Shown in pieces: positions 6,528 through 24,230 of a stretch of DNA of 52,563 nt. Under the pieces are notes generated by a model that was not told the origin of the DNA, searched no databases, and worked only from the letters and a program-made list of their open reading frames with translations. The position numbers were made by a program, and so were the translations under genes. Source of the DNA: Gammaproteobacteria bacterium (GTDB lineage: Bacteria; Pseudomonadota; Gammaproteobacteria; Xanthomonadales; Rhodanobacteraceae); contig JAJPHQ010000080.1 in the NCBI GenBank assembly GCA_021325195.1, positions 1-52,563 on the forward strand, in the 5' to 3' direction. Each line of letters begins with the position of its first letter. The first letter of the stretch is position 1.

Positions 6528-7778
6528 TCACCGTTCCGCCAGATAACGCCGCGCGACCAGCACGTTGAACGCGAGGTAGAGGATGTAGTTCAGGACGAAC
6601 GCGTACATCGCGCCGATCAGGCCGAACTGCGCGGTGAACACGAAGACCAGCGCGAGGTAGCTGGCCGCGAACACGAACTCGGAAACGACGAACAGGCGCG
6701 TCATGGCCTTGGCCAGCATCAGATACGCGAGCAGAAACGAGGCGATCTTCACCACGTCGCCCAGCAACTGCGGGCCGTACAGGGCAGCGGCGGAGGTGAA
6801 GTCCGCGCTGAACAGCAGCTGCGTGACCCAGCCACGCAGCAGGTAGATCATGCCGGCCGCCGCGATCGCCACGGGCATGAGATGCCGGTAGGCCTTGCGG
6901 AGCTCGTTGACCAGTTCGCCGCGTTCGTGGATCGAGGCGAGCTTCGGCAGGTAGTAGATATTGATGGCGGTGGTGAGGAACAGCAGATAGGCGTCCGACA
7001 CCTTGCTCACCGCCTGCCAGTTGCCGGCCTGCTCCCAGCCGAACCGCAACGCGAGGTGGTCGCGCACAGCGATGTTGACCAGCGGCCCCAGCAGGGCCGA
7101 GGTGAGCGTCATCGTCGAGAACATCGCCAGACGCAGCGTCATCTCGCGGTCGAAGCGGACCCTGAACATGCCGCGCCGGAAATAGGGACTTCGCCGCAAC
7201 GCCGGCAACCCGACGGCGAGCCACAGCAACTGGCCCGTGACGAGCGCGAGCAGCGCGCCGAACAGGTGCAGCCACCGCGACAGCGCCACCACCAGCGCCA
7301 TGCACAGCACCGAACCGAGCACCTGGATCACGGCGAGCCGGCGGACATCCATGAAGCCGTTGATCACGGCGAGGATGTAGTTGACCAACGCGATCCCGAT
7401 CTGCGCGACCGCGAGCAGGCGGATCAGGCTTTCGTAGCGGATGTCGCCCAGCAGCCAGACGGAGAGCTGCCGGCTGAAGATCAGCACCACGCATCCCGTC
7501 ACGACCGACGCGCACAGGGCATAGAACAGCGCCGCCGACAGCAGGCGCGGCAGGCGCAGCGGATCGTTGCGATATTCGGCGACGTACTTGACGATGCCGG
7601 CGCTGATGCCGCCGCCCGCCAGCACCGCCAGCAGCGACATCAGGCTCAGGAACTGCCCCAGCCTGGTCACGCCGGCCGGCCCGGCAAGCCACGCGACCAG
7701 TTTCAGCACCACGAGGCCCGCGACCAGCCGCGCGGCGGTGCCGATCGCGCTGCAGAAACCGGCGCTGGCGAAGTTCAT
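6528..7778 (-). CDS. Wzx/RfbX-type lipid-linked oligosaccharide flippase
   Basis: A protein of 416 residues with about 12 hydrophobic helices in the MATE/MOP pattern, the same length as E. coli WzxE. The N-terminal stretch ([20 protein letters not shown], then [17 protein letters not shown]) and central features such as [17 protein letters not shown] match the enterobacterial-common-antigen/O-antigen translocase family. The ATG at 7778 overlaps the aminotransferase stop as ATGA, and the gene ends 2 bp before the glycosyltransferase start. Next to an amino-deoxyhexose aminotransferase, this pairing resembles the wzxE-wecE arrangement. It should flip the undecaprenyl-PP-linked repeat unit to the periplasmic face. 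Confidence 0.85.
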
Positions 7779-8887
7779 GCGGAACACTCGAATGTCGCGC
7801 ACGCGCGGATCACGCGCTCGACGGCATCGTCCGCCAGCGTCGGGGCGATCGGCAGGCTCAGCACTTCCTCGTGCAGGCGCTCCGTCAACGGCAGGCGCAG
7901 ATTGCGCAACTCGGGATACGCGGGCTGCCGGTGCGGCGGAACGGGATAGTGGACGGCGCCGTGTATCCCCTGCAGCGCGAGGTGCCGCCGCAACGCGTCG
8001 CGACGAGGGCAGCGGATCGTGAAGATGTGCCAGACATGGCTTTCTTCCGCGCGCACCTGCGGCAGTCGGATCAGCGGATGGGTGATGCCATCGCGGTAGC
8101 GGCGCGCCACGCCGCGACGCAGCGCATTGTCCGCATCGAGGCGCCCGAGCTTGACGCGCAATATCGCGGCCTGGATCTCGTCCAGCCGTGAATTCACGCC
8201 TTGATGAAGATGATGGTATTTGACCTGGGAACCGTAGTTGCGCAGCGCCAGCACCGTGTCGGCCAGACGCGAATCGCCGGTGACCACCGCCCCGCCGTCG
8301 CCCAGCGCGCCGAGATTCTTGGTCGGATAAAAACTGAAACCCGCCGCATCGCCGAACGCGCCGGCCCTGCGCCCGTCGAGCATCGCTCCGTGCGCCTGCG
8401 CCGCGTCTTCGATCAGCAGCAAACCATGCCGTTTCGCCAGTTCGGACAACGCGTGCATGTCCGCCAGCTGGCCGTACAGATGCACGGCCATGATCGCGCG
8501 CGTGCGCGGGCCGACGGCCGCTTCCGCGCACGCCGGATCGATATTGAAAGTGAGCGGGTCCGGTTCCACCGGCACCGGAACCAGCCGGTTCGCCGAGATG
8601 GCCAGCAGGCTCGCGATGTAGGTATTGCCGGCCACGATGACTTCGTCACCCTCCGCCAGAACGCCCAGTTCCCGGTAAGCGCGAAAGATCAGCGTGAGTG
8701 CATCCAGGCCATTGCCCACGCCGAGCGCGTGGCGCGCGCCGCAATAGGCTGCAAATTCCCGTTCGAACGCCGCCAGTTCCTCGCCGAGCACGTACCATCC
8801 GGAGTCGATGACCCGCGCCGTCGCGGCCTTCAGCGCATCGGCGTAGCGGGCGTTGATCGCCCCCACATCGAGGAACGGCACGTCCAT
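7775..8887 (-). CDS. fdtB: DegT/DnrJ/EryC1/StrS aminotransferase, probable dTDP-3-amino-3,6-dideoxyhexose transaminase (FdtB/QdtB type)
   Basis: A PLP-dependent sugar aminotransferase of 370 residues. It opens with [17 protein letters not shown] and contains [17 protein letters not shown] and DAAQAHGA (161-168), whose Asp contacts the pyridine nitrogen. [13 protein letters not shown] carries the PLP lysine at about K190. These features and the partnership with the adjacent cupin oxoisomerase point to amination of a dTDP-3-keto-6-deoxyhexose. Galacto (Fuc3N, FdtB) versus gluco (Qui3N, QdtB) cannot be decided from sequence. The ATG at 8887 overlaps the stop of a small upstream ORF as TGATG. dTDP-glucose synthesis genes (rmlA/rmlB) are not in the window. 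Confidence 0.85.
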
Positions 8888-9141
8888 CACGGCAGCCACG
8901 GATGCATGTCGTGTACGCCGGCGCGCGCAGCGAGGCGTTCCTTCGATCCGGTCAAGCCATGGCCGGAGATCGCAGCCTCGCTTTCGGCCGGAATGGCTGA
9001 GCCGGAAGGAAAGTGCTTGTCCGGGCGGTCGAGCCGGCTGGCCGGGATCGCGGCAAAAACATCCGCTGCCGACGGCGACCGATGCGCGTCCGGATCGTCG
9101 TGCCCCGGCACGGGGCGGCCAGCCAGCCCGGTCTTCTTCAT
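8887..9141 (-). CDS. Hypothetical 84-aa protein between fdtA and fdtB
   Basis: Not recognised. The ORF starts with ATG at 9141, overlapping the stop of the 38-residue ORF as ATGA, and ends in a TGA that overlaps the fdtB start as TGATG. The predicted peptide is rich in Ala, Pro, Ser, Asp and Arg, with no clear domain, signal peptide or hexapeptide-repeat acyltransferase motif. In Fuc3NAc clusters an acetyltransferase gene (fdtC) may lie between fdtA and fdtB. This could therefore be a degenerate remnant or a small coupling ORF. Support is the double coupling only, and antisense/other-frame alternatives exist. Confidence 0.3.
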
Positions 9142-9254
9142 GAATCGCGTTCCACCCGGAACGCGAGGGTTTCGCGGTCGCCGCCGTGCCCGAAGTGTTC
9201 ACGGGCAGTCCGCGCGAATTCGCCCGCTTCGACGAGGTCTAGCGCCCCGGACAT
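9138..9254 (-). CDS. Hypothetical 38-aa ORF overlapping the end of fdtA
   Basis: Not recognised. The small ORF begins inside the last codons of fdtA (ATG at 9254, 16-bp overlap) and ends at 9138 in an ATGA overlap with the 84-residue ORF. The peptide has a plausible protein-like start ([17 protein letters not shown]) and ends [10 protein letters not shown], which could be the first helix and strand of a truncated transferase. It may be the surviving N-terminus of a broken gene whose frame was lost near 9138. Reported because the region would otherwise be an unexplained 350-bp gap. Confidence 0.25.
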
Positions 9255-9676
9255 GCCGCCATGCCCTCCACGCGCAAGCCGCCGTCGATCTCGCGCAGGA
9301 ATTCGTCGTAATCGGTGATGTAGTCGGCCGGGTCGTAAAGGTGATCGGCGAGCACCATCAGCACGCAGTCCTCGCTGAAGTCGTACATCTCGTGCCACAC
9401 CATCCGTTGCAGCAGCAGACCCTGCGCGGGATCGTCGAGCACGACATGCACCGGTCCGCTGCCGTCGTCCAGCAGGAAGGTGACGGAGCCGCGCAAGGTC
9501 ACCGCAAGCTGACTGAGATGGCGATGCGCGTGCTGGCCCCGGTGCACGCCACCCTTCGTTCCGAACAGGTAGTAGACACGCCTGATCTTGAAAGGCACGT
9601 TGCGTTCCTGCTCCAGCGCGATGAGTGCGCCGCGGCTGTCGCCGTGCATCTGAAACTGGATTCGCTCGATCTGCAT
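9239..9676 (-). CDS. fdtA: Cupin dTDP-6-deoxyhexose 3,4-oxoisomerase (FdtA/QdtA/WxcM family)
   Basis: A single-domain cupin of 145 residues. The strand motif GGVHRGQHAHRHLSQLAVTL places His at positions 49 and 51, the spacing of the catalytic pair in characterised FdtA enzymes. The N-terminal RRVYYLF and the middle GSVTFLLDDG, MVWHEMYDFSED and DHLYDPADYITDYDEFL segments are all characteristic of the family. It would isomerise dTDP-4-keto-6-deoxyglucose to the 3-keto sugar that FdtB aminates. It is the first gene of the minus-strand polysaccharide operon. The ATG at 9676 has no strong Shine-Dalgarno; a CAAACG/CGTTTG inverted repeat lies 26-44 bp upstream. Confidence 0.88.
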   Translation of the reverse strand: MQIERIQFQMHGDSRGALIALEQERNVPFKIRRVYYLFGTKGGVHRGQHAHRHLSQLAVTLRGSVTFLLDDGSGPVHVVLDDPAQGLLLQRMVWHEMYDFSEDCVLMVLADHLYDPADYITDYDEFLREIDGGLRVEGMAACPGR

Positions 9677-9956
9677 GCTTTCGGGCGACGCTTGGCACCC
9701 CCAAACGGACCATGCGTTTGAGTGCCGGCCGGCGGACGGAAGGTTGTCCTGACGGCGGTCACACGACCTCCACGCAATGCGAAGCCAGCGCCTCCGGTCG
9801 TCTGATGGGTGTGCGGGGATCGCGCGGCGGTCCGTCGAGAATCAGCGCGACGTGACGGTGTTCCGCGATCACCTGCAAGCCGCCGCCATCGGGGTTGCCA
9901 GCCGTGACTGAATCGCATCGACTGCGCCGCTGCCGTTCGACTGGACGGGCAGCACC
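9677..9956. other. 280-bp divergent intergenic region between fdtA and the porin gene
   Basis: This gap should hold the promoter(s) of the minus-strand polysaccharide operon and possibly of the plus-strand porin/sigma-factor cluster. I see an inverted repeat, CAAACG (9702-9707) and CGTTTG (9715-9720), but no convincing sigma-70 hexamer pair. A minus-strand frame ending at a TGA at 9761-9759 has protein-like composition for about 45 codons (NPDGGGLQVIAEHRHVALIL) and could be a remnant of an older gene. It is not supported well enough to call as a gene. Confidence 0.4.
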
Positions 9957-10748
9957 ATGAGGCGTTCCGGCACACCAGGTGCTCCGCGGCGGAGCGGATG
10001 CCGACGTTGCGAGCACCGCGATCGCCGGGCGCTGTCCGTCCGGGGACGCTTCGCCCCCGCCGCGGCAACGTTTTTCGCCCTGCTCACTTCCCCGAACCAC
10101 GCCCGCCCGGCCGACTTGGGCGGGCAGCTCGCGCTGAGTTCCCAATTGGTGGAACGCGGCATCGCCATCACGCCGCCCAAGCCGGCCGTGCAGGGGGCCC
10201 TGTCCTTGACCTTGCCGTCGGGCTGGTCCTTCGGGTTGTCCGCAGCCGCGGAGGTGCGTTCGCCCGGGCACGTTTCGGAGGCCGTCGCCCGCTTGTCGCA
10301 TTCCGGGATGTTGTCCGGCGACTGGCAGATGCAGACGAACCTGCTTTATTACCACTACTCGGGCATCACCCGCCTCAACGCCGTCGAGGCGGGCGTGGGT
10401 TGGGTGTACCGGGACATCCTGTCCGTCGGCCTGTCCGGCATCTATGCCCTCGGCACCGACGAACGCCGGTTGCGTCCCGCCCTGGACACCGGTTTCCGCT
10501 GGCCGTTGACGCACGGCCTTTCCTTTTCCGCCGGAGCGGGCTTCACCCGCTACGTGATCTCCCGCTACCGGGAACCCGGCGATGCCTATCACTCGGCTTT
10601 CTACCTCTACGGCAACGCGGGGCTGCAGTGGAGCCGGGGGCCCTGGCAGGCGGGGCTCAGCCGCATGTTCATCAGCCCGGGCGCCCGCCGGCAACTGGAC
10701 TATCTGGCCGCGTCGCCCTGGCTCGCGACCCTTTCACGCGCTTTCTGA
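9957..10748 (+). CDS. Putative outer-membrane porin (TorF/TIGR02001-like)
   Basis: A protein of 263 residues from the ATG at 9957. The first 30 residues are Arg-rich, and a hydrophobic signal-like segment (FAPAAATFFALLTSPNHARPA) follows, so the true start may be later but no better start codon is visible. After cleavage the sequence is a run of amphipathic beta-strands: LALSSQLVERGIAI, then PAVQGALSLTLPSGWSFGLS, typical of the small TIGR02001/TorF porins (the SxxxxRGI motif followed by PxxQGGL). The C-terminal strands alternate aromatic and small residues, ending in LATLSRAF with the terminal Phe usual for outer-membrane barrels. It precedes the ECF sigma gene by 55 bp. Confidence 0.55.
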   Translation: MRRSGTPGAPRRSGCRRCEHRDRRALSVRGRFAPAAATFFALLTSPNHARPADLGGQLALSSQLVERGIAITPPKPAVQGALSLTLPSGWSFGLSAAAEVRSPGHVSEAVARLSHSGMLSGDWQMQTNLLYYHYSGITRLNAVEAGVGWVYRDILSVGLSGIYALGTDERRLRPALDTGFRWPLTHGLSFSAGAGFTRYVISRYREPGDAYHSAFYLYGNAGLQWSRGPWQAGLSRMFISPGARRQLDYLAASPWLATLSRAF

Positions 10749-10753: not shown

Positions 10754-10784
10754 GGCAACCTTTCGGTCCCGGCCCGGTACCTAC
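10754..10784 (+). promoter_or_regulatory. Candidate ECF-type promoter before the sigma-factor gene
   Basis: Within the 55-bp gap between the porin stop and the sigma start, GGCAACCTTT at 10754-10763 resembles an ECF -35 element (GGAAC-like core). About 17 bp after the core hexamer comes GGTACCTAC at 10776-10784, a possible -10 region. ECF sigma genes are often autoregulated from such sites. Recognition is by eye only and no second copy was found to support a motif. Confidence 0.25.
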
Positions 10785-10803: not shown

Positions 10804-11406
10804 ATGAACGAAGCCGAGCTCGACACCGATATCTCCGATCGCATGCTGCTCCAGCGCATGGCGGAGGGAGACCGTGCGGCACTGACGGTGCTGTACCGCA
10901 ACTACCACGCGAACCTGTGCCGCTTTCTGACCAGGTTGACGCGGCGTGCCGACATCATCGAGGAAATCATCAACGACTGCTTCTGGATCGCCTGGCAGAA
11001 AGCGGACAACTTCCACGGCGATTCGCGCGTGTCCACCTGGATCATGGGCATCGCCTATCGCTGCGGGCTCAAGGCGCTGAGGCAGCGCGGCAACGCGCTG
11101 GTGTACGACCATGAGCTGCTGGAGGAACGCACCCCCGCCGACGATCCGGACGAGGATCGCGAGCTGCGTGACTGGCTGGCGAGGGGACTCGATCACCTGT
11201 CCGCCGATCATCGGCTGGTGATCGAACTGGTTTACGGATTGGGCCACAGCCTGGACGAGGTCGCCGCGATCATGCAGAGCCCGGTCGGTACCGTGAAGGC
11301 GCGCCTGTTCCATGCACGGATCAAGCTGCGCAACGTGCTGCCCGGACTTGCCGACCGGACAAGCCGGCGAAACGAGGCATCCCTGCAGAAGGAGACCGTG
11401 CCATGA
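10804..11406 (+). CDS. ECF-family RNA polymerase sigma factor
   Basis: A protein of 200 residues with the two-domain ECF layout. Region 2 (about residues 22-85) contains LYRNYHANLCRFLTRL, then DIIEEIINDCFWIAWQKA and the -10-recognition/melting segment STWIMGIAYR. Region 4 (about 125-180) contains LSADHRLVIELVYGLGHSL, then DEVAAIMQSPVGTVKARLF, the -35-binding helix-turn-helix. The ATG at 10804 was chosen over longer in-frame extensions that read back into the porin gene. Its last codons overlap the anti-sigma start (ATGA), the classic arrangement for a sigma/anti-sigma pair. It should direct RNA polymerase to a small regulon, perhaps including this locus. Confidence 0.92.
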   Translation: MNEAELDTDISDRMLLQRMAEGDRAALTVLYRNYHANLCRFLTRLTRRADIIEEIINDCFWIAWQKADNFHGDSRVSTWIMGIAYRCGLKALRQRGNALVYDHELLEERTPADDPDEDRELRDWLARGLDHLSADHRLVIELVYGLGHSLDEVAAIMQSPVGTVKARLFHARIKLRNVLPGLADRTSRRNEASLQKETVP

Positions 11407-12035
11407 CGTTCCCGACGGATGCCGGCAGCGAATGCGCCCGCGCCTGGGAAGCGATGCCCTGGGTGCTGCAGACCGGCAGTTCGCACGAGCAGGGCGAATG
11501 GCTGATGAACCATCTTGCCCGCTGCGCGGCGTGCAGCGCGGAATTCGCGCAGCAGAGCCGCCTGCGGGATGCGCTGTCGTTGCCGCCGGATGTCGCGATC
11601 GACCCGGAAGCCGGATTGAAGCGCCTGCTGGCCCGTGTGGATGCGGCGGATTCGGCCGCCAGTCCCGTTCGTCGGCGCACCCGCAACTGGTTGCCGGCGG
11701 CCATGGCGGCGATGCTGCTGCTGCAGATGCTCGGCATGGGCGTGCTCGGCGCCAGGCTGTGGACGGACGGAACCGCGCCGTACCGGACCCTCAGCCAGGC
11801 AGCGCCGCCCGCGGTTCCCGGCGCGATCCGCGTGGTGCCCGACGCCGGCATGAAGCTGGCCGACTGGGACCGCCTGCTGCACACCCTCGGCCTGCGGGTG
11901 ATCGACGGTCCCAACGATCTGGGCGCCTACACGGTCGTGCCCGTCGGCCCCGCTTCCTCCCCCCCGGAGACGCTGCGGCGGCTCCGCGCCAATCACGCCA
12001 TCCGCTTGGCAGAGCCCATCGACAACCCGCGATGA
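11403..12035 (+). CDS. Membrane anti-sigma factor with zinc-finger (ZAS) domain and propeptide-like C-terminal domain
   Basis: A protein of 210 residues in three parts. The cytoplasmic part carries NHLARCAACSAEF, giving His37-x3-Cys41-x2-Cys44, the zinc-binding anti-sigma signature. A single membrane helix spans about residues 96-118 (LPAAMAAMLLLQMLGMGVLG). The remaining 90 residues would be periplasmic and end in LRRLRANHAIRLAEPI (191-206). That tail resembles the propeptide of the protease encoded immediately downstream (LLAALARDGRVRLAEPL). The gene overlaps the sigma gene by 4 bp (ATGA) and the protease gene by 4 bp (ATGA). It is expected to hold the sigma factor at the membrane until an envelope signal releases it. 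Confidence 0.88.
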   Translation: MTFPTDAGSECARAWEAMPWVLQTGSSHEQGEWLMNHLARCAACSAEFAQQSRLRDALSLPPDVAIDPEAGLKRLLARVDAADSAASPVRRRTRNWLPAAMAAMLLLQMLGMGVLGARLWTDGTAPYRTLSQAAPPAVPGAIRVVPDAGMKLADWDRLLHTLGLRVIDGPNDLGAYTVVPVGPASSPPETLRRLRANHAIRLAEPIDNPR

Positions 12036-13345
12036 AATTCGGCGCCGTTCTCCTTGCCGCTGCAGCCATGTCGTGGAGCGCGTGCGCGCTTGCGCGGTCC
12101 CCGGCGTCCGGGCCCGCGCACGTCGATCATGCGCAAGCCGGCAATCCCGTCACCTCGATGGACAGCCGGCGTGACATCGTGCTGGCCGTCGCCAATCCGC
12201 TCGATCCGCCCGTGATGCACGCCGGTTCGAGCCTGCTCGGTTACACCCCTTCCGGCATTTACGGCGCCGGCCAGCGCGCCGCATCCACCCTGGCCGCGTT
12301 GCAGCGGAACTACCGCTGGCGGCAAGTCACCGGCTGGCCCATCAAGAGCCTGGACCTGTACTGCATCGTGCTCGAACCGCCCGCGGGCATGAGCAGGGAA
12401 GCGCTGCTGGCGGCGCTGGCCAGGGACGGCCGCGTGCGGCTCGCCGAACCGCTGCAGGATTTTTCCGTCTATTCGGAGCAGCCGGGGCACACACACGCGG
12501 CACGCCGGTACAACGACCCCTATGCCGATCTGCAACTCGGTTTCGTCGAAACCGACGCCGCCCGCGCGCAGGCATTCACCCAGGGCGCGGGCGTGGACAT
12601 CGCGGTCGTGGATACCGGTGCGGACGTGGAGCATCCCGATCTACGCGGCCAGATCCACGACGTGCACAACCTGGTCGATGACTCGGCGTCGGCGTTCGAT
12701 CGCGATCAGCACGGCACGGAAGTCGCGGGCATCATCGCCGCGATCGCCGACAACCACCGCGGCATCGTGGGCATCGCGCCCAGGGCCACGCTCAGCATCT
12801 TCAAGGCGTGCTGGTATCCGCCGGATTCCGAGGGCGGTGCGCGCTGCAACTCCTTCACCCTCGCCAAGGCGCTGGCGGCGGTCATGGATACCAACGCCCG
12901 CATCGTCAATCTGAGCCTGGGCGGTCCGCCGGACCCGCTGCTGTCCGGACTGCTGCGCCGCCTGCTGGACCAGAATCGCATCGTGATCGCCGCGATGCCC
13001 GACGACGGCAACCTCGGTGGGTTCCCCGACGACGTGCCGGGCGTCATCGTGGTGCGCTCCGGCCGTGATTCGGTGGACCCGCCGGGCGTGTTGAGCGCCC
13101 CGGGCCGGGACATCCTGACCACGCAACCCGATGGCGGCTACGACTTCACTTCGGGATCGTCCATGGCCGCCGCGCATGTCAGCGGCATCGCCGCGCTGCT
13201 GGTGTCGATGTCGCCGCGTCTGGACGCGCGCGCGATCCACGACCTGCTGATGCGCAGCAGCAAGGTCGTAGACGGAACGCTCGAGGTCAACGCCGCGGCG
13301 GCGGTCTCCGCGCTGCGCGGTTCGCAGCGATCGCGTCATGAATGA
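12032..13345 (+). CDS. Secreted S8 (subtilisin-like) serine protease
   Basis: A protein of 437 residues. The N-terminus is a signal peptide (about 1-22, ending CALA). A propeptide-like region (about 85-146) follows, including LLAALARDGRVRLAEPL. The peptidase domain carries a complete Asp-His-Ser triad: Asp194 in IAVVDTGADVEHPD, His227 in QHGTEVAGIIA and Ser377 in SGSSMAAAHVSG. The oxyanion-hole Asn is less clear; VNLSLGG at about residue 290 aligns with the usual strand. The ATG at 12032 overlaps the anti-sigma stop (ATGA). Subtilases of this kind mature by cutting off their own propeptide. Location after the sigma/anti-sigma pair suggests a role in, or control by, that signalling unit. Confidence 0.9.
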   Translation: MKFGAVLLAAAAMSWSACALARSPASGPAHVDHAQAGNPVTSMDSRRDIVLAVANPLDPPVMHAGSSLLGYTPSGIYGAGQRAASTLAALQRNYRWRQVTGWPIKSLDLYCIVLEPPAGMSREALLAALARDGRVRLAEPLQDFSVYSEQPGHTHAARRYNDPYADLQLGFVETDAARAQAFTQGAGVDIAVVDTGADVEHPDLRGQIHDVHNLVDDSASAFDRDQHGTEVAGIIAAIADNHRGIVGIAPRATLSIFKACWYPPDSEGGARCNSFTLAKALAAVMDTNARIVNLSLGGPPDPLLSGLLRRLLDQNRIVIAAMPDDGNLGGFPDDVPGVIVVRSGRDSVDPPGVLSAPGRDILTTQPDGGYDFTSGSSMAAAHVSGIAALLVSMSPRLDARAIHDLLMRSSKVVDGTLEVNAAAAVSALRGSQRSRHE

Positions 13346-13466: not shown

Positions 13467-14678
13467 ATGCGCGTCGTCCACTTGCCGTTCGCAGCCGCAC
13501 TGCTCGTTCTGTCCGCGCTGACGGGAGCATTCGTGGTCGTGCAGCGCGCCGGCGCGCAGGTTGCCCATCCCACCGCTTCATCGGGCACGCTGACCGAACA
13601 GGATTTCCACCGCATCCTGCCGACCGGCGCTGCGCAGGCCGCGACGGGCACCGGTCCGCACGCCGGGGCGATGCCCGCGAGCGCGCTGACCACCGAAGAT
13701 TTCAGGCGGATGCTGCCGCGCACCGACATGCGCACGGATACCGACGCGACCGGCCACGCGCCTGTGCACGCCTTCCTTGCGAACGGACCGGCCACGCCGT
13801 TCGACTCGGCACCGATCGCGAAGAATCCGCTAGCGCCCGACGCGGTCGCGGTCGGCGCGAAGACCTGCATCGCCTGCCATGCGCTGGAAAACGTGCACGC
13901 CTCGCATTCGCTGCACCTCGCGGCGTTCCGCGCCGGCGCCGCCGGAACGGGTCCCGATGCCGCCTGCGAAACCTGCCACGGCCGCGGTTCCGCGCACGCG
14001 AAGGACCCGACCGGGCCGGGCCTGATCATCGCCTTCACCCGCGACGCGAAAACGCCCATCGAGACACAGACCGGCGTGTGCCTGTCGTGCCACAAGGGCG
14101 GCGCACGCCAGGACTGGATCGGTTCGGTGCACCAGGAACGCGGACTGGCGTGCACCGACTGCCACAATCCGATGGCGCGGCTCTCGGCCGAGGGCGTGCT
14201 GGCGAACAACTCCATCAATCAGGTGTGCTCGACCTGCCATCAAGACATCCGCGACAAGTTCAACCGCCGCTCGCACATGCCGCTGCCGGAAGGCCAGATC
14301 TCCTGCGCGGATTGCCACAACCCGCACGGCACGCTGACCGCCGACCTGATCAAGACCGACACCGTCAACGAGACCTGCTACACCTGCCACGCCGAGAAAC
14401 GCGGGCCGTTCCTGTTCGAACACGCGCCGGTGCGCGAAAACTGCCTGACCTGTCACGATCCGCACGGCTCCAACCAGCAGGCGCTGCTGGTGCTGCCCGT
14501 GCCGATGCTGTGCCAGCAATGCCACACCATGACGCTGCACCCGAACGACCTGCAGACGATCGCGGGGCTGGCAACCGGACAGGCGCCGGACGAGCGCCTG
14601 ATCGGACGCGCCTGCCTGAGTTGCCACACCAACATTCACGGTTCCAACAATCCGTCGGGCTCGAGGTTCCACAAGTAG
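13467..14678 (+). CDS. Periplasmic decaheme c-type cytochrome (MtrA/PioA/DmsE family)
   Basis: A protein of 403 residues with an N-terminal signal/anchor helix (about 4-25) and exactly ten CxxCH haem-binding motifs: CIACH (134-138), CETCH, CLSCH, CTDCH, CSTCH, CADCH, CYTCH, CLTCH, CQQCH and CLSCH. Ten haems with this spacing is the MtrA/DmsE pattern. A roughly 100-residue extension separates the signal from the first haem and holds two copies of a short motif, LTEQDFHRILP (42-52) and LTTEDFRRMLP (74-84). The ATG at 13467 follows an AGGGG; an upstream in-frame GTG at 13449 is possible. The MtrB/PioB barrel follows 31 bp later. Predicted to sit inside that barrel and carry electrons across the outer membrane. 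Confidence 0.92.
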   Translation: MRVVHLPFAAALLVLSALTGAFVVVQRAGAQVAHPTASSGTLTEQDFHRILPTGAAQAATGTGPHAGAMPASALTTEDFRRMLPRTDMRTDTDATGHAPVHAFLANGPATPFDSAPIAKNPLAPDAVAVGAKTCIACHALENVHASHSLHLAAFRAGAAGTGPDAACETCHGRGSAHAKDPTGPGLIIAFTRDAKTPIETQTGVCLSCHKGGARQDWIGSVHQERGLACTDCHNPMARLSAEGVLANNSINQVCSTCHQDIRDKFNRRSHMPLPEGQISCADCHNPHGTLTADLIKTDTVNETCYTCHAEKRGPFLFEHAPVRENCLTCHDPHGSNQQALLVLPVPMLCQQCHTMTLHPNDLQTIAGLATGQAPDERLIGRACLSCHTNIHGSNNPSGSRFHK

Positions 14679-14709
14679 CGGAAGTCCCGTGACGGAACGG
14701 GAGGGGTTC

Positions 14710-17292
14710 ATGTGCAAGGCGCTGATCGCACCACTGGCAGTTGCCATCGCCGCCTGTCTGGCGAGCGCAGCGGCGCTGGCCGATTCCAGCGACAGCGCGC
14801 GCGTGGGCGACATCCAGTACGGCAACGCCCTCGACCCCACCGGCTGGGCGCCTTTGCTGTGGCCGGATCCGCGCGGGTTCTCCTGGCTGCACGCGGGCAT
14901 GATGCGCACGCCCAGCGGCGTGCTCTACCCCTATCCGCCGCAACGCGACGACCAAGGCTCGCCGCTGTACAAGGACAGCGACTGGGTCTATGGGGGTTTC
15001 CTGCAAGCGGGTTGGCTGCACCTGAGTGGCGACACCAGGGCCGAATTCTTCCGCCAGTACGCAGGCTGGAAAAGCGGCATCGCGCTCGGTCTGCTCGCGC
15101 TGTATGCGGACAATCCGAAGACGGGGCAGTACGTCGAGTTCCGCGGCAGCCGGTTGAGCGGCGACGATCAATACTACCGCCTGCGCGCGGGGCAGTACGG
15201 CAACTACAAGATCGAGGCGTTCTGGCGTGTCATCCCCCACGACGTCACCACCGACGCCTATCCGCTCTGGAACGGCGTCGGCAGCACCAACCTGACGCTG
15301 CCGGCGCCGCTGGTCCCGGGCGGCAGCACGCCCGCCCAGGTGGCCGCCGTCGAAAAGACGCGCCCGCGCCAGACGATCGGCCTGACGCGCAGGCGCGCAG
15401 GGCTCAGCTTCGAGGACAAGTTGTGGGGCAACTGGATCGGTTACGTCTCGGTGGTCAACGAGAAGCGCACCGGCACCCGGTTGTGGGGCGGCTCGATGTT
15501 CTTCAACTACGTGCTCCCCGACAACGGCGGGATCCTGGAAACGGTGCGCCCGATCGACTTCAGCACCACCGACATCGGGATGGGACTGCGCAATGTCGGC
15601 AACGTCTGGCAGTTCCAGTTGACCTACACGGGTTCGTTCTTCCGCAACCACAAGGACCGGCTGGATTTCCAGAGCCCGTTCCAGCTGAGCAACGTGGCGG
15701 GCGTGCCGCAGGTCGCGAATATCTATCAGGGCCAGTTCTCGCTGGAACCCGACAACGACTACCACAACCTGCGCCTGGAGCTTTCGCGCGACCTGAAATG
15801 GAACGGCCACCTGTCGGTCGCGGCAGCGTGGGGCACGATGCGCCAGAACGACGCGCTGCTGCCGCCGGTCACCTGCACCGGCACCGGCGGCGTGTTCATC
15901 TCGCCGTCGGCCAATTACACGTTCGACTGCGCGGACTGGAACACCACCGCCGCGCTGTCGCAGAAGACCGCCGACGCGCGCATCGACACCGGCCTCTTCG
16001 ACGTGAAAGCCGTCTTCCATCCGACCCCCAAATTCGGCTGGCACGCCGGAATCCGCTGGTACCGCGAGGACAACAAGACCAACTATCTCGCCTTCAATCC
16101 CCTGACCGGGCAGTACGGCTACATTTCCGAAAACGGATCGCAGGGCAGCGTGGTGCCCGGCGAGGTCGGCATTTTCGATCCGCGCAATCCGCTGTACTGG
16201 TCGTACGTGACCCAGGTGCGGGCGATTCCGTTCGGCTACACCGACAGCATCCTCGACACCGGCATCGACTGGCGCGTCAGCGAAGCCGATACCCTGAACC
16301 TGAGCTGGAGCTTCGACCGCAACCAGCCCAAATACCGCGAGCGCAAGCTGGTGAACGAACAGCGCATCAAGCTGGCGTGGGTGGATCGCGCGCTGGGCAA
16401 GGGCACGCTGCGCTTCAGCTATGAATTCGCCCATCGCGACGGCGGCCCCTACAACTACGACCCCTACCAACCGTTCTACTCCACCGCCCTGCCGGGCTTC
16501 GTGACGCCGCCGCTGGGCAACGCCGCCTTCACCACCGACGCGATGCGCAAGTACGACCTGAGCAACCGCATCGAGCACAAGCTGCGCGCGATCGTGATCT
16601 ATCCGATCGGCGACACCGCCACGATCTCGGGCGTCGTGTACGCGACGCGCGACAATTACGGCGCCGCGCTCGGCCGCCAGGCCACGCGCAACCGCGGCGT
16701 CAGTCTGGCCTGGGACTGGCAGCCTTCGCCCGCGACCAGCATGAGCGCCAATCTGGGCCGCGACGATTCCCGCCTGCAATTCTCCAACGTCAACGACTTC
16801 GAGAACCTGCTGGGGCAGGCCGGCCGCGACAATCCCGCCTTCGGCGGACCGCTGTATCCATTCGCCAACCAGTGGGCCGACGACGACCGTGAACGCGACT
16901 ACAACGCCGGCCTCACCCTGCGCCACGACTTCGGCCGCGTGCGCGCCGACCTCGGCTACACCTATACCTATGCGCTGGGGAAACTGGGCTACGTGTTCGC
17001 GTCACCGGGCGCGCTCTCGACCACCCAGCAGCCGTTCGTCGCCACGGTCGGCAACGGCTTCCCCGACAACCACTATCACATCAACACGCTGCAACTCGGT
17101 TTCGACCTCGCCTTTACCCGCACGCTCGGGATGCGGGTGTTCGACATCTTCGAGACCGGCAACTTCGCCGACTGGCACTACCTCGGGCTCCAGAACAGCC
17201 TGGTGATCGACCACAAGGTGTACACCGATCTCGGTCCGCACCCGCACTACCGCGCCAACCTGCTGGGCATGATGCTCAACCTGAAACTGTGA
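14710..17292 (+). CDS. MtrB/PioB-family decaheme-associated outer-membrane beta-barrel
   Basis: A protein of 860 residues. A signal peptide (about 1-24, ending AALA) is followed by a long series of alternating strands rich in Tyr, Trp, Asn, Arg and Asp, as in a large 20+ strand porin. Recurrent pieces such as YYRLRAGQYGNYKIEAFW and FRNHKDRLDFQSPF, and a C-terminus ending in MMLNLKL, match the MtrB/PioB family that sheathes a decaheme cytochrome. The ATG at 14710 has a good Shine-Dalgarno (GGGAGGGG). The family's CxxC near the N-terminus seen in some Shewanella proteins is not present. With the preceding decaheme gene it should form an outer-membrane electron conduit. Confidence 0.88.
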   Translation: MCKALIAPLAVAIAACLASAAALADSSDSARVGDIQYGNALDPTGWAPLLWPDPRGFSWLHAGMMRTPSGVLYPYPPQRDDQGSPLYKDSDWVYGGFLQAGWLHLSGDTRAEFFRQYAGWKSGIALGLLALYADNPKTGQYVEFRGSRLSGDDQYYRLRAGQYGNYKIEAFWRVIPHDVTTDAYPLWNGVGSTNLTLPAPLVPGGSTPAQVAAVEKTRPRQTIGLTRRRAGLSFEDKLWGNWIGYVSVVNEKRTGTRLWGGSMFFNYVLPDNGGILETVRPIDFSTTDIGMGLRNVGNVWQFQLTYTGSFFRNHKDRLDFQSPFQLSNVAGVPQVANIYQGQFSLEPDNDYHNLRLELSRDLKWNGHLSVAAAWGTMRQNDALLPPVTCTGTGGVFISPSANYTFDCADWNTTAALSQKTADARIDTGLFDVKAVFHPTPKFGWHAGIRWYREDNKTNYLAFNPLTGQYGYISENGSQGSVVPGEVGIFDPRNPLYWSYVTQVRAIPFGYTDSILDTGIDWRVSEADTLNLSWSFDRNQPKYRERKLVNEQRIKLAWVDRALGKGTLRFSYEFAHRDGGPYNYDPYQPFYSTALPGFVTPPLGNAAFTTDAMRKYDLSNRIEHKLRAIVIYPIGDTATISGVVYATRDNYGAALGRQATRNRGVSLAWDWQPSPATSMSANLGRDDSRLQFSNVNDFENLLGQAGRDNPAFGGPLYPFANQWADDDRERDYNAGLTLRHDFGRVRADLGYTYTYALGKLGYVFASPGALSTTQQPFVATVGNGFPDNHYHINTLQLGFDLAFTRTLGMRVFDIFETGNFADWHYLGLQNSLVIDHKVYTDLGPHPHYRANLLGMMLNLKL

Positions 17293-17302
17293 GGAGGGCA
17301 CC

Positions 17303-18004
17303 GTGATCTTCGCATCCCGCCGCTCCGGTGCACTGGCCGTTCCCCCGCTTGCATGCGCGGTGCTGGCGACCGGCATGGCGCTGGCGGCGAGCGCGCCGTT
17401 CGACGATCTGCGCAGGCAACCGCCGGTGCATGGCGACGCTGCCGCTGGTGCAGCCAAGGCCGTGGTGTGCGCGGCCTGTCACGGCAGCCGCGGCACCGCG
17501 GTTGCGCCCACCTTCCCCAACCTGGCCGGGCAGTCGGAAACCTATCTGTACGTGCAACTGCGCGCGTTCCAGGACGGCGCGCGCGACAACGCGGTGATGA
17601 AACCGCTGGCCGCGAACCTGACGGACCGCGACATGCACGATCTGGCCGCCCACTTCGCATCGCTGCCGCCGGGGGCCGCACGGCCCGTGGCGCAAAAGTC
17701 CCCGCGCGGCGACACGCTTTTCCACGACGGCGATCCCGCCGCGGGCGTACCGCCCTGCCAGGGCTGTCATGGTCCGGATGGCCGGGGCCCGCGGCCCGAT
17801 CTCGCCAGCACCGCGCCGCAACCGGCTTGGTCGACCTTCCCCGCGCTGGCGGGCCAGAACGCCCCGTACGTGCTGGAACAGCTGAAGGCCTATCACGACG
17901 GCACCCGTGTCGGCACCAGCAACGACAGGGTCATGCAAGGCGTCGCGCACAATCTCAGCGAGGCGGACATGGCCGCGCTCGCCGGTTACGTGTCGTCGTT
18001 GTGA
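17303..18004 (+). CDS. Diheme cytochrome c4-like periplasmic protein
   Basis: A protein of 233 residues starting at GTG 17303, preceded by GAGGAGGG. Signal peptide about 1-29. Two class I cytochrome c domains follow: CAACH with a likely Met ligand in NAVMKPLA, and CQGCH with a likely Met in DRVMQGVA. The domain pair with FPNLAGQSETYLYVQLRAF and FPALAGQNAPYVLEQLKAY is the cytochrome c4 signature. It lies 10 bp after the MtrB-like gene and is surely co-transcribed. It probably shuttles electrons in the periplasm between the decaheme conduit and inner-membrane acceptors or donors; direction of flow is not shown by sequence. Confidence 0.9.
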   Translation: MIFASRRSGALAVPPLACAVLATGMALAASAPFDDLRRQPPVHGDAAAGAAKAVVCAACHGSRGTAVAPTFPNLAGQSETYLYVQLRAFQDGARDNAVMKPLAANLTDRDMHDLAAHFASLPPGAARPVAQKSPRGDTLFHDGDPAAGVPPCQGCHGPDGRGPRPDLASTAPQPAWSTFPALAGQNAPYVLEQLKAYHDGTRVGTSNDRVMQGVAHNLSEADMAALAGYVSSL

Positions 18005-18062
18005 CGCGTCGGGGTCCGGCGGAGACGATCGAAACCGCAGAACGGAACCTGCGCCGACCGTT

Positions 18063-18149
18063 TGGTGCCGGGGGCGGGGATCGAACCCGCATGGCCTTGC
18101 GGCCGAGGGATTTTAAGTCCCTTGCGTCTGCCAGTTCCGCCACCCCGGC
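18063..18149 (-). tRNA. tRNA-Leu (UAA)
   Basis: 87 nt on the minus strand with encoded 3' CCA. The 7-bp acceptor stem pairs GCCGGGG with CCCCGGC. The anticodon loop is CTTAAAA in a stem of AGGGA/TCCCT, giving anticodon UAA. A long variable arm (class II tRNA) and the T-loop GGTTCGATCCC are clear. It is third in a Gly-Cys-Leu series that matches the glyW-cysT-leuZ order after uvrC-pgsA in E. coli. Confidence 0.97.
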
Positions 18150-18207
18150 GCGCCCTCAGGCAGCGGCAAGCGCCTTCGAGCATGCGCGACAAGGTGACGG
18201 GAATGCA

Positions 18208-18281
18208 TGGAGGCCAGGGTCGGAATCGAACCGGCGTACGCGGATTTGCAGTCCGCTGCATGACCACTCTGCCACCTGGCC
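18208..18281 (-). tRNA. tRNA-Cys (GCA)
   Basis: 74 nt including encoded CCA. The acceptor stem is GGCCAGG with CCTGGCC, the anticodon loop CTGCAAA gives GCA, and the T-loop is GGTTCGATTCC. It lies 58 bp upstream (in transcription order) of tRNA-Leu, so the two may share a transcript. An intrinsic terminator separates it from tRNA-Gly. Confidence 0.97.
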
Positions 18282-18334
18282 GTGCACACCATCCATTGTC
18301 GCGGCGAGTCGAGCTTAACGCGCCGGCATCGGAT

Positions 18335-18359
18335 AAACAAAACCCCGGCAACGCCGAGG
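18335..18359 (-). terminator. Intrinsic terminator after tRNA-Gly
   Basis: On the minus strand CCTCGGC (18359-18353), a 3-nt loop and GCCGGGG (18349-18343) form a 7-bp stem with one G-U pair, followed by TTTTGTTT (18342-18335). This is a textbook Rho-independent terminator. It should end the tRNA-Gly transcript about 130 bp after the gene and uncouple it from tRNA-Cys/tRNA-Leu. Confidence 0.8.
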
Positions 18360-18490
18360 TTCATGAGGCGAAAGTCCGGGATCGACACAGCCGGTCTTTC
18401 GCATTTCGTGAAAGGCGCGGCCGGGAAATCCCTAGCCACGGATGGCTCCGGCCGCTTCGTGGTACGCGCTCGACGACGAGCGCAGGAATA

Positions 18491-18566
<76 letters not shown>

Positions 18567-18577
18567 ACGGCTTGCCA

Positions 18578-18606
18578 ATGATACGGGCGGCATCCGGGCA
18601 GTTCAA
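18578..18606 (-). promoter_or_regulatory. Candidate sigma-70 promoter for tRNA-Gly
   Basis: On the minus strand TTGAAC (18606-18601) is followed after exactly 17 bp by TATCAT (18583-18578), 11 bp before the tRNA 5' end. The -35 box overlaps the pgsA stop codon. The hexamers match 4/6 and 5/6 of consensus, good for a stable-RNA promoter in such GC-rich DNA. Confidence 0.6.
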
Positions 18607-19250
18607 GCGGAGCGCGAGGCATCGTCGCGCGGCGCCCGGTCGCCGCGCAGCACCGGCCACGCGGCACGGAGGTATGCCAGTCCCGACCAGATCGTCAGGA
18701 TCGCGGCGATCACCAGCAATGTCTCGCCGGCGAACCACAGGCGCAGGAACGTGGCGTCCTTGTCGCGTTCCAGCAGCAGCACCAGGATCGCGACGATCTG
18801 GATCACCGTCTTGAACTTGCCGATCCACTGCACCTTGACCAGCGCGCGTTCGCCCACCGACGCCATCCATTCGCGCAGCGCCGACACCGCGATTTCGCGA
18901 CCCACGATCACCGCGCTGGTCACGGCCAGCAGCGCGGTCGGGTGGCTCTGCACCAGCACGAACAGCGTGACGCCCATCATCAGCTTGTCGGCGACCGGGT
19001 CGAGGAACGCGCCGAACGCCGATTCCATGTGCCAGCGCCGCGCGATCCAGCCGTCCAGCCAGTCGGTCACCGATGCCAGCGCGAACACCACGGCCGCCGC
19101 CATGTTGGCGGCGCGCAGCGGGATCGCCGGTATCGCGGCGTGCGAATAGAACACCACCACCATCACCGGCAGCAGCATGATCCGGAACAAGGTCAGCGCG
19201 GTGGGGAGATTGATGCGCAAGCCACGATTCTCAGGAAGGATCCATGTCAT
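18603..19250 (-). CDS. pgsA: CDP-diacylglycerol--glycerol-3-phosphate 3-phosphatidyltransferase
   Basis: An inner-membrane CDP-alcohol phosphotransferase of 215 residues that makes phosphatidylglycerol-phosphate. It contains the family motif DGx2ARx8Gx3Dx3D: DWLDGWIARRWHMESAFGAF then LDPVADK, at about residues 68-92. NLPTALTLFRIMLLPVMVVV is the usual first helix. The ATG at 19250 gives an 11-residue leader before this conserved start; a TTG at the LRINLPT position would match E. coli length more closely. It follows uvrC by 47 bp, the order seen in many gammaproteobacteria. Confidence 0.93.
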   Translation of the reverse strand: MTWILPENRGLRINLPTALTLFRIMLLPVMVVVFYSHAAIPAIPLRAANMAAAVVFALASVTDWLDGWIARRWHMESAFGAFLDPVADKLMMGVTLFVLVQSHPTALLAVTSAVIVGREIAVSALREWMASVGERALVKVQWIGKFKTVIQIVAILVLLLERDKDATFLRLWFAGETLLVIAAILTIWSGLAYLRAAWPVLRGDRAPRDDASRSA

Positions 19251-19297
19251 CAGGAAGGCGGCAACCGTGGCAGTTTCGCACGGTGCCGGCGTTTGCG

Positions 19298-21118
19298 TCA
19301 GCCATGCAGGAAGGCGTGGATGCGTTCGGCAAGTTCGCGGTTGATTCCGCGCACCCGGCAAAGTTCCTCCACGCCGGCCGCGACGATGCCCGCATGGCCA
19401 CCGAACGCCTTCAGCAGCGCCGCCCGGCGGTGCGCGCCGATGCCGGGGACGTCCTCCAGCACGCCGTGCTCGCGGGCCTTTTCGCGGCGGCGGCGATGTC
19501 CGGTGATCGCGAAGCGGTGCGCCTCGTCGCGGATCGCGTCGATCAGGTGCAGCGCCGGCGAATCCGGACCCGGATTGATCGGCGGTCCGCCGCCGCCCGG
19601 CACCAGGGTTTCCTCGCCTTCCCTGCGTGAAGGTCCCTTGGCGACACCCACCACCTCGATTCCGTCTAGCCCGAGTTCGCGGAGCACTTCCAGTGCCTGC
19701 GCGACCTGACCCTTGCCGCCGTCGATCAGCAGCAGGTCGGGCGCCTCGCCCTCGCCGCGCGTCAGCGGTTTCAGGCGGCGTTCCAGTGCCTGCCGCATCG
19801 CCGCGTAATCGTCGCCCGGCGTGACGTCGCGGATGTTGAAGCGCCGGTAGTTCTGTTGCTGCGGACCTTCGGGGCCGAACACCACGCACGAGGCCACGGT
19901 TTCCTCGCCCAGCGTGTGGCTGATGTCGAAGCATTCGATGCGCCCGGGCACTTCGTCCTGTTGCAGCAATTCGCGCAACGCCTCGAAACGCGCCTGCAGG
20001 GTCTGCCTGCCGGAAAGTCTTGCGGTGAGCGCCGCTTCCGCGTTGCGCGCGGCCAGCTCCACGAAACGCGCGCGCTCGCCGCGCACCCGCCACTTCAGCG
20101 CGACCGCATGACCGCCGTGCGCGCCCAGCATTTCTTCCAGCGCCACGGCGTCGGCGGGTTCACGCTCGACCACGATCTCGGCCGGCACGGGTTGTTCCAG
20201 GTAATACTGCGCGAGGAACTGTCCCAGCACCTGTCCGGGTTCCGCGTCCAGCGCCAGCTTCGGAAAGAAATCGCGCGAACCCAGGCTGATGCCGTTGCGG
20301 AAGAACAGCACCGACACGCACGCGATCCCGGCTTCGATCCGGCAGGCGAACACGTCCATGTCCGCGCTGGCGCCGCGCACGTAATGACGCGCCTGCAGGC
20401 CGCGCAAGGTCGCGACCTGGTCGCGCAGGCGCGCGGCGCGCTCGTAATCCTGGCGCGCGCTGGCCGCTTCCATCGCGGCGGCCAGTTCGCCCAACACCGC
20501 GTCGCTGCGGCCTTCCAGGAACATCGCGGCGTGACGGACGTCCTCGCCATACTCCGCGGCGTCGATGAAGCCCACGCACGGCGCGGTGCAGCGTCCGATC
20601 TGGTATTGCAGGCACGGGCGCGAACGGTTGCGGAAATAGCTGTTCTCGCACTGCCGCACCTTGAACAGCTTCTGCATCAGCGCCAGGCTCTCGCGCACCG
20701 CGTGCGCGCTGGGATACGGGCCGAAGTAGCGGCCCTTCTCGCGCTTGGCGCCGCGGTGGAACACGATGCGCGGGAATTCGTCGGCCGACAGGAAGATGTA
20801 CGGATAGCTCTTGTCGTCGCGCAACATGATGTTGTAGCGCGGCTTCAGCGACTTGATCAGTTGCGCTTCCAGCAGCAGCGCCTCGCCCTCGGTGCGGGTC
20901 AGCGTCACCTCGATCCGCGTGATCTGCGCCAGCATCGAGGCAATCCGCGGGTCGAGCCGCGGTTTCAGGAAATAACTGCCGACCCGCTTCCTGAGATTCG
21001 CCGCCTTGCCAACGTACAGCAATGCATCACCCTCGCCGAACATGCGATAGACACCGGGCGAGGTGGTGAGGGTGCGGACGAAGGCCTTGCCGTCGAAGGC
21101 CGGTGCAGCGGATGGCAT
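19298..21118 (-). CDS. uvrC: Excinuclease ABC subunit C
   Basis: A protein of 606 residues, close to E. coli UvrC (610). The N-terminal GIY-YIG nuclease (GVYRMFGEGDALLYVGKA) makes the 3' incision. The four-Cys region (CENSYFRNRSRPCLQYQIGR then CTAPC) and the UVR motif (QDYERAARLRDQ, about 205-216) follow. The C-terminal RNase H-like nuclease has FDISHTLGEETVASCVVF and LLIDGGKGQ, and tandem helix-hairpin-helix motifs (VPGIGAHRRAALLKAFGG) end the protein. It acts in nucleotide excision repair with UvrAB. The ATG at 21118 was chosen because upstream in-frame sequence lacks homology. Confidence 0.97.
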   Translation of the reverse strand: MPSAAPAFDGKAFVRTLTTSPGVYRMFGEGDALLYVGKAANLRKRVGSYFLKPRLDPRIASMLAQITRIEVTLTRTEGEALLLEAQLIKSLKPRYNIMLRDDKSYPYIFLSADEFPRIVFHRGAKREKGRYFGPYPSAHAVRESLALMQKLFKVRQCENSYFRNRSRPCLQYQIGRCTAPCVGFIDAAEYGEDVRHAAMFLEGRSDAVLGELAAAMEAASARQDYERAARLRDQVATLRGLQARHYVRGASADMDVFACRIEAGIACVSVLFFRNGISLGSRDFFPKLALDAEPGQVLGQFLAQYYLEQPVPAEIVVEREPADAVALEEMLGAHGGHAVALKWRVRGERARFVELAARNAEAALTARLSGRQTLQARFEALRELLQQDEVPGRIECFDISHTLGEETVASCVVFGPEGPQQQNYRRFNIRDVTPGDDYAAMRQALERRLKPLTRGEGEAPDLLLIDGGKGQVAQALEVLRELGLDGIEVVGVAKGPSRREGEETLVPGGGGPPINPGPDSPALHLIDAIRDEAHRFAITGHRRRREKAREHGVLEDVPGIGAHRRAALLKAFGGHAGIVAAGVEELCRVRGINRELAERIHAFLHG

Positions 21119-21191
21119 CCCGTCATTGTACCCGCGTGCCGGTCCGGCCTGCGGTGGCGCGCGATGCGCGTGGCAGGCTGCGGGGTGACGC

Positions 21192-24134: not shown

Positions 24135-24230
24135 CGGCGATCTCCTTCCGATCCCGTGCATGCACCGTTTACTTCTTCGCCACGGCATCCTCGCTGCCGC
24201 CCACGCAGCCCCGCACGATGCGCAAGGCTT

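Follow-up and report, generated by a model that had tools for sequence, protein, structure and literature searches.

Positions 13467-18004 of a 52,563-nucleotide (nt) stretch of contig JAJPHQ010000080.1 (the window), from a Rhodanobacteraceae-type genome (GCA_021325195.1), carry the genes of an MtrAB/PioAB-type electron conduit, namely a decahaem c-type cytochrome, an outer-membrane barrel and a dihaem cytochrome c4. The fuller reading, which we regard as reasonably probable, is that the conduit works inward with c4 as its partner, is controlled by an extracytoplasmic function (ECF) sigma factor together with a surface-polysaccharide operon, and is switched on when a subtilase releases that sigma factor. 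The decahaem cytochrome would plug the 26-stranded barrel and carry electrons across the outer membrane, and c4 would carry them through the periplasm. Net flow would most likely start at Fe(II), or at some other surface or solid in reduced form, and pass through the conduit and c4 to an acceptor of high potential, for example an aa3-type oxidase, with nitrite as a possible second sink. In this organism, which has no RuBisCO, the conduit would be a supplementary source of electrons. On the regulatory side, the conduit genes come last in a gene run, presumably a single transcript, that is headed by the ECF sigma factor, a membrane anti-sigma factor and an exported subtilase. The sigma factor would switch on the conduit together with the polysaccharide operon, and the subtilase would likely bind and cut a prodomain mimic exposed by the anti-sigma factor, releasing sigma. 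A broader proposal is held more tentatively, with less than even confidence: one ECF sigma locus may act as a dedicated electron-uptake slot, in which a Cyc2-like protein with a monohaem cytochrome and MtrAB with c4 interchange under the same promoters, the switch being a subtilase that acts on a prodomain-mimicking anti-sigma factor.

The sequence-only reading of the window had proposed the three conduit genes on the plus strand, and open reading frames (ORFs), haem motifs and profiles confirm each of them at its coordinates (Table 1). The expected profile matches were obtained in part. The decahaem cytochrome passes TIGR03508 of the DmsE family (258.2 bits vs a cut-off of 192.2), a model that we take to include MtrA, and the barrel passes PF11854, whereas TIGR03509 gives the barrel an E-value of 4.2e-62 yet only 210.6 bits, short of its curated cut-off of 240.05. 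The closest solved sequence relative of the decahaem cytochrome is PDB 6r2q_A of the Mtr complex (E 1.1e-62, residues 129-400). Its first haem is at residue 134, preceded by a stretch of ~100 residues after the signal peptide. The barrel comprises 867 residues if started at GTG 14689 and 861 if started at ATG 14707, the latter being the likely start. Its single-chain AlphaFold2 model (mean predicted local distance difference test score, pLDDT, 81.5; predicted template-modelling score, pTM, 0.79) contains 26 strands of at least 10 residues, and the top Foldseek match is 6r2q_B (E 4.1e-45, target template-modelling (TM) score 0.88), the other 49 matches listed having TM scores of at most 0.48. 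The third protein has the two domains, two haems and export signal of a periplasmic c4. In phmmer its residues 44-232 match solved c4 chains (6q2u_A, E 8.9e-41), and it is also related to 1h1o_A (E 2.9e-22), which is deposited as cytochrome c-552 and which we take to be the c4 of Acidithiobacillus ferrooxidans. A PHROGs search with c4 returned nothing useful.

Two further features of these proteins were observed. Cysteines 396 and 414 of the barrel, counted from GTG 14689 (C390 and C408 from ATG 14707; nt 15874-15930), are invariant in 47 of 47 aligned sequences and likely form a disulphide. In the decahaem N-terminus (13467-13850), an LT-x-x-D-x-x-R-x-LP-like motif occurs twice in three rows of the genus (the window, L033 and L034) and at most once in other rows, and is perhaps a docking or processing site. 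That the subtilase merely trims this N-terminal extension is a side possibility.

The conduit also occurs in relatives of the window. A barrel match is present in 80 of 233 Rhodanobacteraceae genomes, covering 15 of 26 genera, with two of the 80 (G184, G185) weak at 28-30%. A named scan, whose patterns were peptides of the window's own subfamily and which is therefore biased towards it, yielded 74 loci, including Rhodanobacter, Dyella, Frateuria, Luteibacter, Fulvimonas, Dokdonella, Rudaea and Tahibacter as well as Lysobacter, Luteimonas, Stenotrophomonas, Pseudoxanthomonas and metagenome-assembled genomes (MAGs) with broader or other labels. Among named sequences, those closest to the barrel come from Rhodanobacteraceae/Lysobacterales MAGs. 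A 369-genome sample of the class gave 19 genomes with a barrel match at E 1e-10 and three strong ones (>700 bits): the genome of the window, one of the same family and one of another family. From the named scan and this sample, the ~860-residue barrel seems to be mainly a Lysobacterales protein. Decahaem cytochrome, barrel and c4 are kept together in 71 of the 74 named loci, which argues that the set is more than a chance association; the fetched DNA of the other three (L064, L091, L105) stops inside the set. The genome of the window is 99.85% complete and holds a single MtrB, and tandem duplicates of the triplet are observed in L051, L057, L099 and L102. A plasmid origin was rejected, no match being found among 72,556 plasmid records.

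The remainder of the electron chain bears on the direction of flow. Searches of the genome for an MtrC-type cytochrome (TIGR03507) and for CymA/NapC (PF03264) drew a response solely from the decahaem cytochrome itself, at 21.1 vs 209.3 bits and 16.4 vs 24.1 bits, respectively. The lack of an MtrC-type outer-surface cytochrome, which the sequence-only reading had noticed beside the pair, thus extends to the whole genome. Since neither MtrC nor CymA/NapC is present, its comparison with PioAB/MtoAB rather than with metal reducers is also supported, and the reading as an MtrCAB metal-reducing system is rejected. The genome does contain an aa3-type oxidase (TIGR02891, 637.7 bits, slightly below the cut-off of 670.75), several more c-type cytochromes, and a copper nitrite reductase-like protein fused to cytochrome c (L187, contig C48, 2869-4884, minus strand; 199 bits, below the curated cut-off of 296), which, judged from its sequence, may provide a second electron sink. 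A Cyc2-like query found no match in the genome, and no ORF like a high-potential iron-sulphur protein (HiPIP) lies beside the pair among those of the ORFs at 17303-26039 that were scanned, the rest of the genome not having been searched for HiPIP. Among the named loci, a HiPIP gene is found alongside c4 in 12 of 74 and a cupredoxin gene in 13. The earlier view that c4 replaces the HiPIP is therefore too simple, as those 12 loci have both. Nor is the c4-type partner peculiar to this set, the dihaem shuttle PdsA having been described beside MtrCAB (PMC8805035). The gene set of the genome and its relatives is that expected of an electron-uptake chain whose soluble carriers are of high potential. 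Inward flow resembling Fe(II) oxidation is favoured because CymA/NapC and MtrC are missing, an aa3-type oxidase is present, and HiPIP and cupredoxin genes occur in relatives. A comparable carrier, MtoD of Sideroxydans, is of high potential and has been proposed to feed a terminal oxidase (PMC13390432).

As a machine, the conduit is of the MtrAB/PioAB type, while its modular and regulatory setting was not found in print. Like PioABC of Rhodopseudomonas palustris TIE-1, it combines a decahaem cytochrome with a porin, lacks an outer-surface cytochrome and has a pre-haem extension, which is ~200 residues long in PioA and ~100 in the window (PMC6831781). Some relatives of the window locus add to the likeness by having a HiPIP gene next to the pair. 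This is in contrast to the window itself, where c4 takes the place of the HiPIP beside the pair and an ECF sigma module precedes it. The MtoAB/MtoD/ImoA system of Sideroxydans lithotrophicus ES-1 (PMC13390432) likewise joins an MtrAB-type pair to a small periplasmic cytochrome, but MtoD is a monohaem protein whereas c4 is dihaem, and the genome of the window has no NapC/CymA match over the cut-off. MtrCAB with PdsA (PMC8805035) shares the combination of MtrAB and a dihaem c-type shuttle and differs in the MtrC and CymA that are missing here; the PdsA model NF049874 gives the window c4 55.6 bits against a cut-off of 330. Searches of the open-licence literature found no description of a conduit of this make-up in Rhodanobacteraceae, no ECF control of an MtrAB or Cyc2 locus and no prodomain-like anti-sigma factor.

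The sequence-only reading had taken the conduit set in isolation. The set is, on the contrary, preceded on the same strand by genes for an ECF sigma factor, an anti-sigma factor and a subtilase (10804-13345), whose reading frames overlap at their start and stop codons, and it begins 121 nt downstream of them. Regulators were compared in 75 loci, comprising the 74 named ones and the window, many of which are close kin, so that locus counts are not event counts. An ECF module lies near the conduit in 25 loci (13 upstream, as in the window, 11 downstream and one divergent), among them those of Rhodanobacter panaciterrae (L132) and Dyella halodurans (L068), a strong LysR match lies divergent and upstream of the conduit in 26, and neither regulator is seen in 24, some of them on short contigs. 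No locus of the 75 has both next to the conduit. A tree of MtrB was built from 73 of the 75 rows, L064 and L091 being cut short by their contig ends. On this tree the ECF label requires 8 changes, or at least 7 when judged by well supported branches. This suggests that the association of sigma factor and conduit has been made or lost several times. In the genus of the window, a close anti-sigma factor is found in 7 of 8 genomes with the conduit and in 0 of 8 without it. A FolE2-type GTP cyclohydrolase gene, not there in the window, is located between the S8 subtilase and the conduit, or beyond the subtilase, in L032, L034, L035, L060 and others.

A 25-nt motif, CAACCTT-N13-GGYAC, is situated upstream of the sigma gene and is the candidate promoter of the run. 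Its core is present with at most one mismatch in 23 of the 25 ECF loci, the other two having a 26-nt form. A second copy precedes the FdtA sugar operon of the window, and the motif is similarly placed ahead of FdtA in Rhodanobacter- and Dyella-type loci (L068, L085, L086, L088-L090, L121, L132). A weight matrix trained solely on the sigma promoter sites was then applied to the regions upstream of mtrA. With the sigma gene downstream of the conduit, 9 of 10 scored loci reach 17-29, the tenth (L130) giving 6.4 with the 26-nt form, and the sole divergent locus gives 11.0. With the sigma gene upstream, window included, 13 of 13 score below 0; the lack of an mtrA motif in this arrangement is in keeping with read-through. 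None of the 26 LysR loci has the motif (best score 10.3), and the difference between these and the 11 downstream or divergent loci is marked (Mann-Whitney P 1.5e-6). The 20 scored loci with neither regulator include two strong scores (L091, 24.7; L111, 26.4) and two lower ones (L093, 13.1; L108, 11.2), the background being ~0.004 per region at a score of at least 13. Too little upstream sequence was available to score L087 (ECF) and L064, L101 and L103 (no regulator seen), and L105 has no MtrA match.

The minus-strand run that starts with FdtA (594-9676) continues with a DegT aminotransferase, Polysacc_synt, a glycosyltransferase and Wzz, followed by methyltransferases. Copies of the motif are also observed ahead of a second cupredoxin-like gene in Tahibacter-type loci (L107, L113, L124, L129; ~3220-3350, minus strand) and ahead of a methyltransferase-like gene akin to window 2529-3431 (L066 at 2054 and L128 at 6721, minus strand). 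In L216 and L217 (genomes G048 and G050), a HiPIP gene lies directly upstream of mtrA and is itself preceded by a variant motif, AAACCAAT-N12-GGCAC. FolE2 at G000:C62 was rejected as a member of the regulon. The motif copy there stands 477 nt ahead of the FolE2 match, in sequence that appears to belong to another gene, and the genome of the window contains 2 matches to the reversed control pattern as well.

The place between the FdtA promoter and the sigma gene, termed here the slot, was read in eight family genomes in which the conduit is elsewhere or missing. Six of them (L195-L199, L201) hold in this slot a ~450-residue protein that has a single haem motif and ends in phenylalanine, and no such one-haem gene occupies the slot of L200 and L202. 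Neighbours of the slot protein are a cytochrome b561 on its upstream side (L195, L197) and a monohaem cytochrome c on its downstream side (L196, L197, L199). The published rule for Cyc2 is AXPXFAR[Q/K][T/Y] before one CxxCH, PXL after it, and a length of at least 365 residues (PMC8406198). With tyrosine allowed for the phenylalanine and a pattern spacing looser than published, 17 of 17 rows match (16 distinct, of 61 genes). These rows have one haem and 411-423 residues from the motif onward; 16 carry the tyrosine and one, L211, the phenylalanine itself. No Pfam or NCBIfam model matches the four Cyc2-like proteins tested, and Cyc2 homologues in Rhodanobacteraceae have been noted (PMC10654088).

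Across the 233 genomes, 95 anti-sigma loci were counted in 94, and within 15 kb of them a Cyc2-like gene is found in 61, MtrB in 19, both in none and neither in 15. Anti-sigma matches were counted at 48% identity or more, minus one short fragment and with 18 weaker ones listed apart; MtrB was counted without its three weakest matches (G168:C78, G184, G185) and Cyc2-like genes at 57% identity or more. No Cyc2-like gene of this close group is more than 15 kb away from an anti-sigma gene (61 of 61), ten genomes have a Cyc2-like gene in the slot and MtrB elsewhere, and many genomes contain more distant Cyc2-like relatives (~30-40% identity) at other sites. A single regulated locus is thus filled interchangeably by two outer-membrane electron proteins that are unrelated to each other. 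The Cyc2-like gene fills in these 61 of 95 loci the same sigma-linked slot as the conduit, although the architecture of the fused Cyc2 cytochrome-porins, with one haem joined to a small barrel, is unrelated to that of MtrAB (PMC8406198).

The anti-sigma factor is of the zinc-finger kind, zf-HC2 (PF13490) being present in 24 of 25 members. It resembles RsiW (PDB 5wuq, E 0.0026) in the zinc finger, the single transmembrane-like (TM-like) helix and the overlapping frames, and differs from the RsiW-type pair in its subtilase-prodomain-like periplasmic domain and in having a subtilase as the third gene. Alignment of its profile with the S8 propeptide region of the neighbouring subtilase (hhalign) gave E 1e-5, probability 82 and a score of 35.3, compared with 20.9 for the best of 60 column shuffles and 11.1 for the reversed control; clade splits gave 33.7, 29.0, 25.2 and 18.7. 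The periplasmic domain has a predicted beta-alpha-beta-beta-alpha-beta fold (mean pLDDT 74.5). The top Foldseek matches include the prodomains of subtilisin, furin and PC1/3, with target TM scores of 0.63-0.69 for separate prodomain chains, and the Pfam fervidolysin prodomain is touched in 8 of the 25 members (best E 0.013). From profile and model, this domain appears to resemble the prodomain of the adjacent subtilase. Residues D194, H227 and S377 of the subtilase, presumably its catalytic triad as judged by sequence motifs, are invariant in 21 of 21 aligned sequences.

Several results weigh against the combined picture of an inward, sigma-controlled and subtilase-released conduit. The genome holds no RuBisCO, which rules out Calvin-cycle autotrophy driven by Fe(II); MtrAB cores, moreover, work in both directions (PMC8805035). 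The sigma module has no conduit nearby in 15 of the 95 anti-sigma loci, some of which may be broken contigs. Five further genomes outside the training set gave a mixed mtrA-side motif, strong in G050 (21.5, the HiPIP-mtrA pair), weak in G048 (13.0) and G054 (13.6), and absent in G043 and G089; L222, the record behind L121, and L219, which ends before the mtrA start, were left out. The exact motif is unspecific in whole genomes, with 14 matches vs 17 for the reversed control in 13 congeners and 44 vs 24 in 14 other family genomes. Of these 44, 33 lie within 15 kb of an anti-sigma gene, and the motif is informative by position, not by number. As to the prodomain resemblance, the last of the clade splits (E 0.018) falls inside the shuffle range, the pTM of the domain model is only 0.37, and the first Foldseek match, EF-1 beta (2yy3_A, E 4.5e-3), is a translation factor that has the general fold in common, with no match reaching E 0.001.

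The alternatives draw on the same observations. A stress tool rather than an energy pathway, in which the sigma factor responds to damage to the envelope or to metal or oxidative stress by inducing surface polysaccharide together with a conduit that oxidises outside Fe(II) or discharges surplus electrons, is somewhat unlikely, and may overlap with either direction of flow. The run led by an ECF sigma factor, an anti-sigma factor and a protease would suit it, as would the shared motif ahead of the FdtA operon, FolE2 beside the subtilase in several relatives and the lack of RuBisCO. In 26 of 74 named loci, however, the conduit has a divergent LysR gene beside it instead, and hence is not bound to the sigma circuit. 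That the same conduit runs outward, from bc1 or another quinol oxidase through c4 and the decahaem cytochrome to an extracellular acceptor such as a metal oxide, humics or another cell, is unlikely. The bidirectionality of MtrAB and the occurrence of dihaem PdsA with MtrCAB and CymA or NetBCD in other bacteria (PMC8805035) are consistent with such a flow, and the missing RuBisCO weakens a lithotrophic reading; against it stand the lack of a CymA/NapC quinol dehydrogenase and of MtrC, and the slot exchange with Cyc2-like genes and the HiPIP and cupredoxin genes of relatives, which point to high-potential inward chemistry. It is improbable that the locus is only a hot spot beside the polysaccharide operon in which the conduit hitch-hikes free of sigma control, as the 15 anti-sigma loci lacking a nearby conduit, the mtrA-side motif missing in two of five further genomes and the want of genome-wide enrichment over the reversed control in the genus might suggest. 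Such hitch-hiking is opposed by the motif that mtrA has of its own when sigma is downstream and lacks when sigma is upstream on the same strand, and by the repeated sigma linkage on the MtrB tree. Service to an extracellular molybdoenzyme such as dimethyl sulphoxide or iodate reductase (DmsEF type) can scarcely be credited: the decahaem cytochrome does pass the DmsE-family model, but neither the ORFs scanned in the first 26 kb of the window nor the recurring neighbours of relatives whose family was checked include the DmsAB that DmsEFAB has, and that the sequence-only reading had named as counter-evidence, the rest of the genome not having been searched for DmsA.

Bacteria of the genera Rhodanobacter, Dyella, Luteibacter, Tahibacter and Dokdonella, which are regarded as heterotrophs, are common in soil and water. 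If a third of the family's genomes do carry an uptake conduit and many others a Cyc2-like protein at the same regulated site, oxidation of Fe(II) or minerals by such 'heterotrophs' may be widespread. The slot exchange lends genomic support to a functional equivalence of MtrAB/PioAB and Cyc2, and the family offers cultivable strains in which this equivalence can be tested. The arrangement of subtilase and prodomain-like anti-sigma factor, if it works as proposed, would be a new way of triggering an ECF sigma factor.

Table 1. Coordinates, strand and basis of the conduit genes, the sigma module and the neighbouring elements of the window.
Feature	Position	Strand	Basis
Decahaem c-type cytochrome, MtrA/DmsE/PioA kind	13467..14678	+	403 aa, ten CxxCH
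MtrB/PioB-type outer-membrane barrel	14689..17292	+	PF11854 MtrB_PioB E 5.9e-83, over cut-off
Periplasmic dihaem cytochrome c4	17303..18004	+	233 aa, two CxxCH
ECF sigma factor	10804..11406	+	Sigma70_r2 and r4_2; start ATG 10804
Anti-sigma factor	11403..12035	+	zinc-finger HxxxCxxC; one TM-like helix, aa 97-115; periplasmic subtilase-prodomain-like domain, aa ~142-205
Exported S8 subtilase	12032..13345	+	PF00082 E 5.6e-31; signal-like N-terminus; start overlaps anti-sigma stop (ATGA)
Predicted ECF promoter CAACCTTTCGGTCCCGGCCCGGTAC of the sigma/anti-sigma/S8/conduit run	10756..10780	+	motif upstream of sigma
Second predicted ECF promoter, ahead of FdtA sugar operon	9722..9746	-	exact pattern; weight-matrix score 16.5
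FdtA/WxcM-like sugar isomerase, first of surface-polysaccharide run	9239..9676	-	PF05523 E 8.7e-46
DegT/DnrJ/EryC1 sugar aminotransferase, same run	7775..9202	-	PF01041 E 1.6e-107
Gcw_chp-like protein	9957..10748	+	PF09694 E 6.2e-5, 23.5 bits, slightly below cut-off 24; adjoins sigma in related loci

Directly 3' of the c4 gene, three tRNA genes are located on the minus strand (18066-18566).

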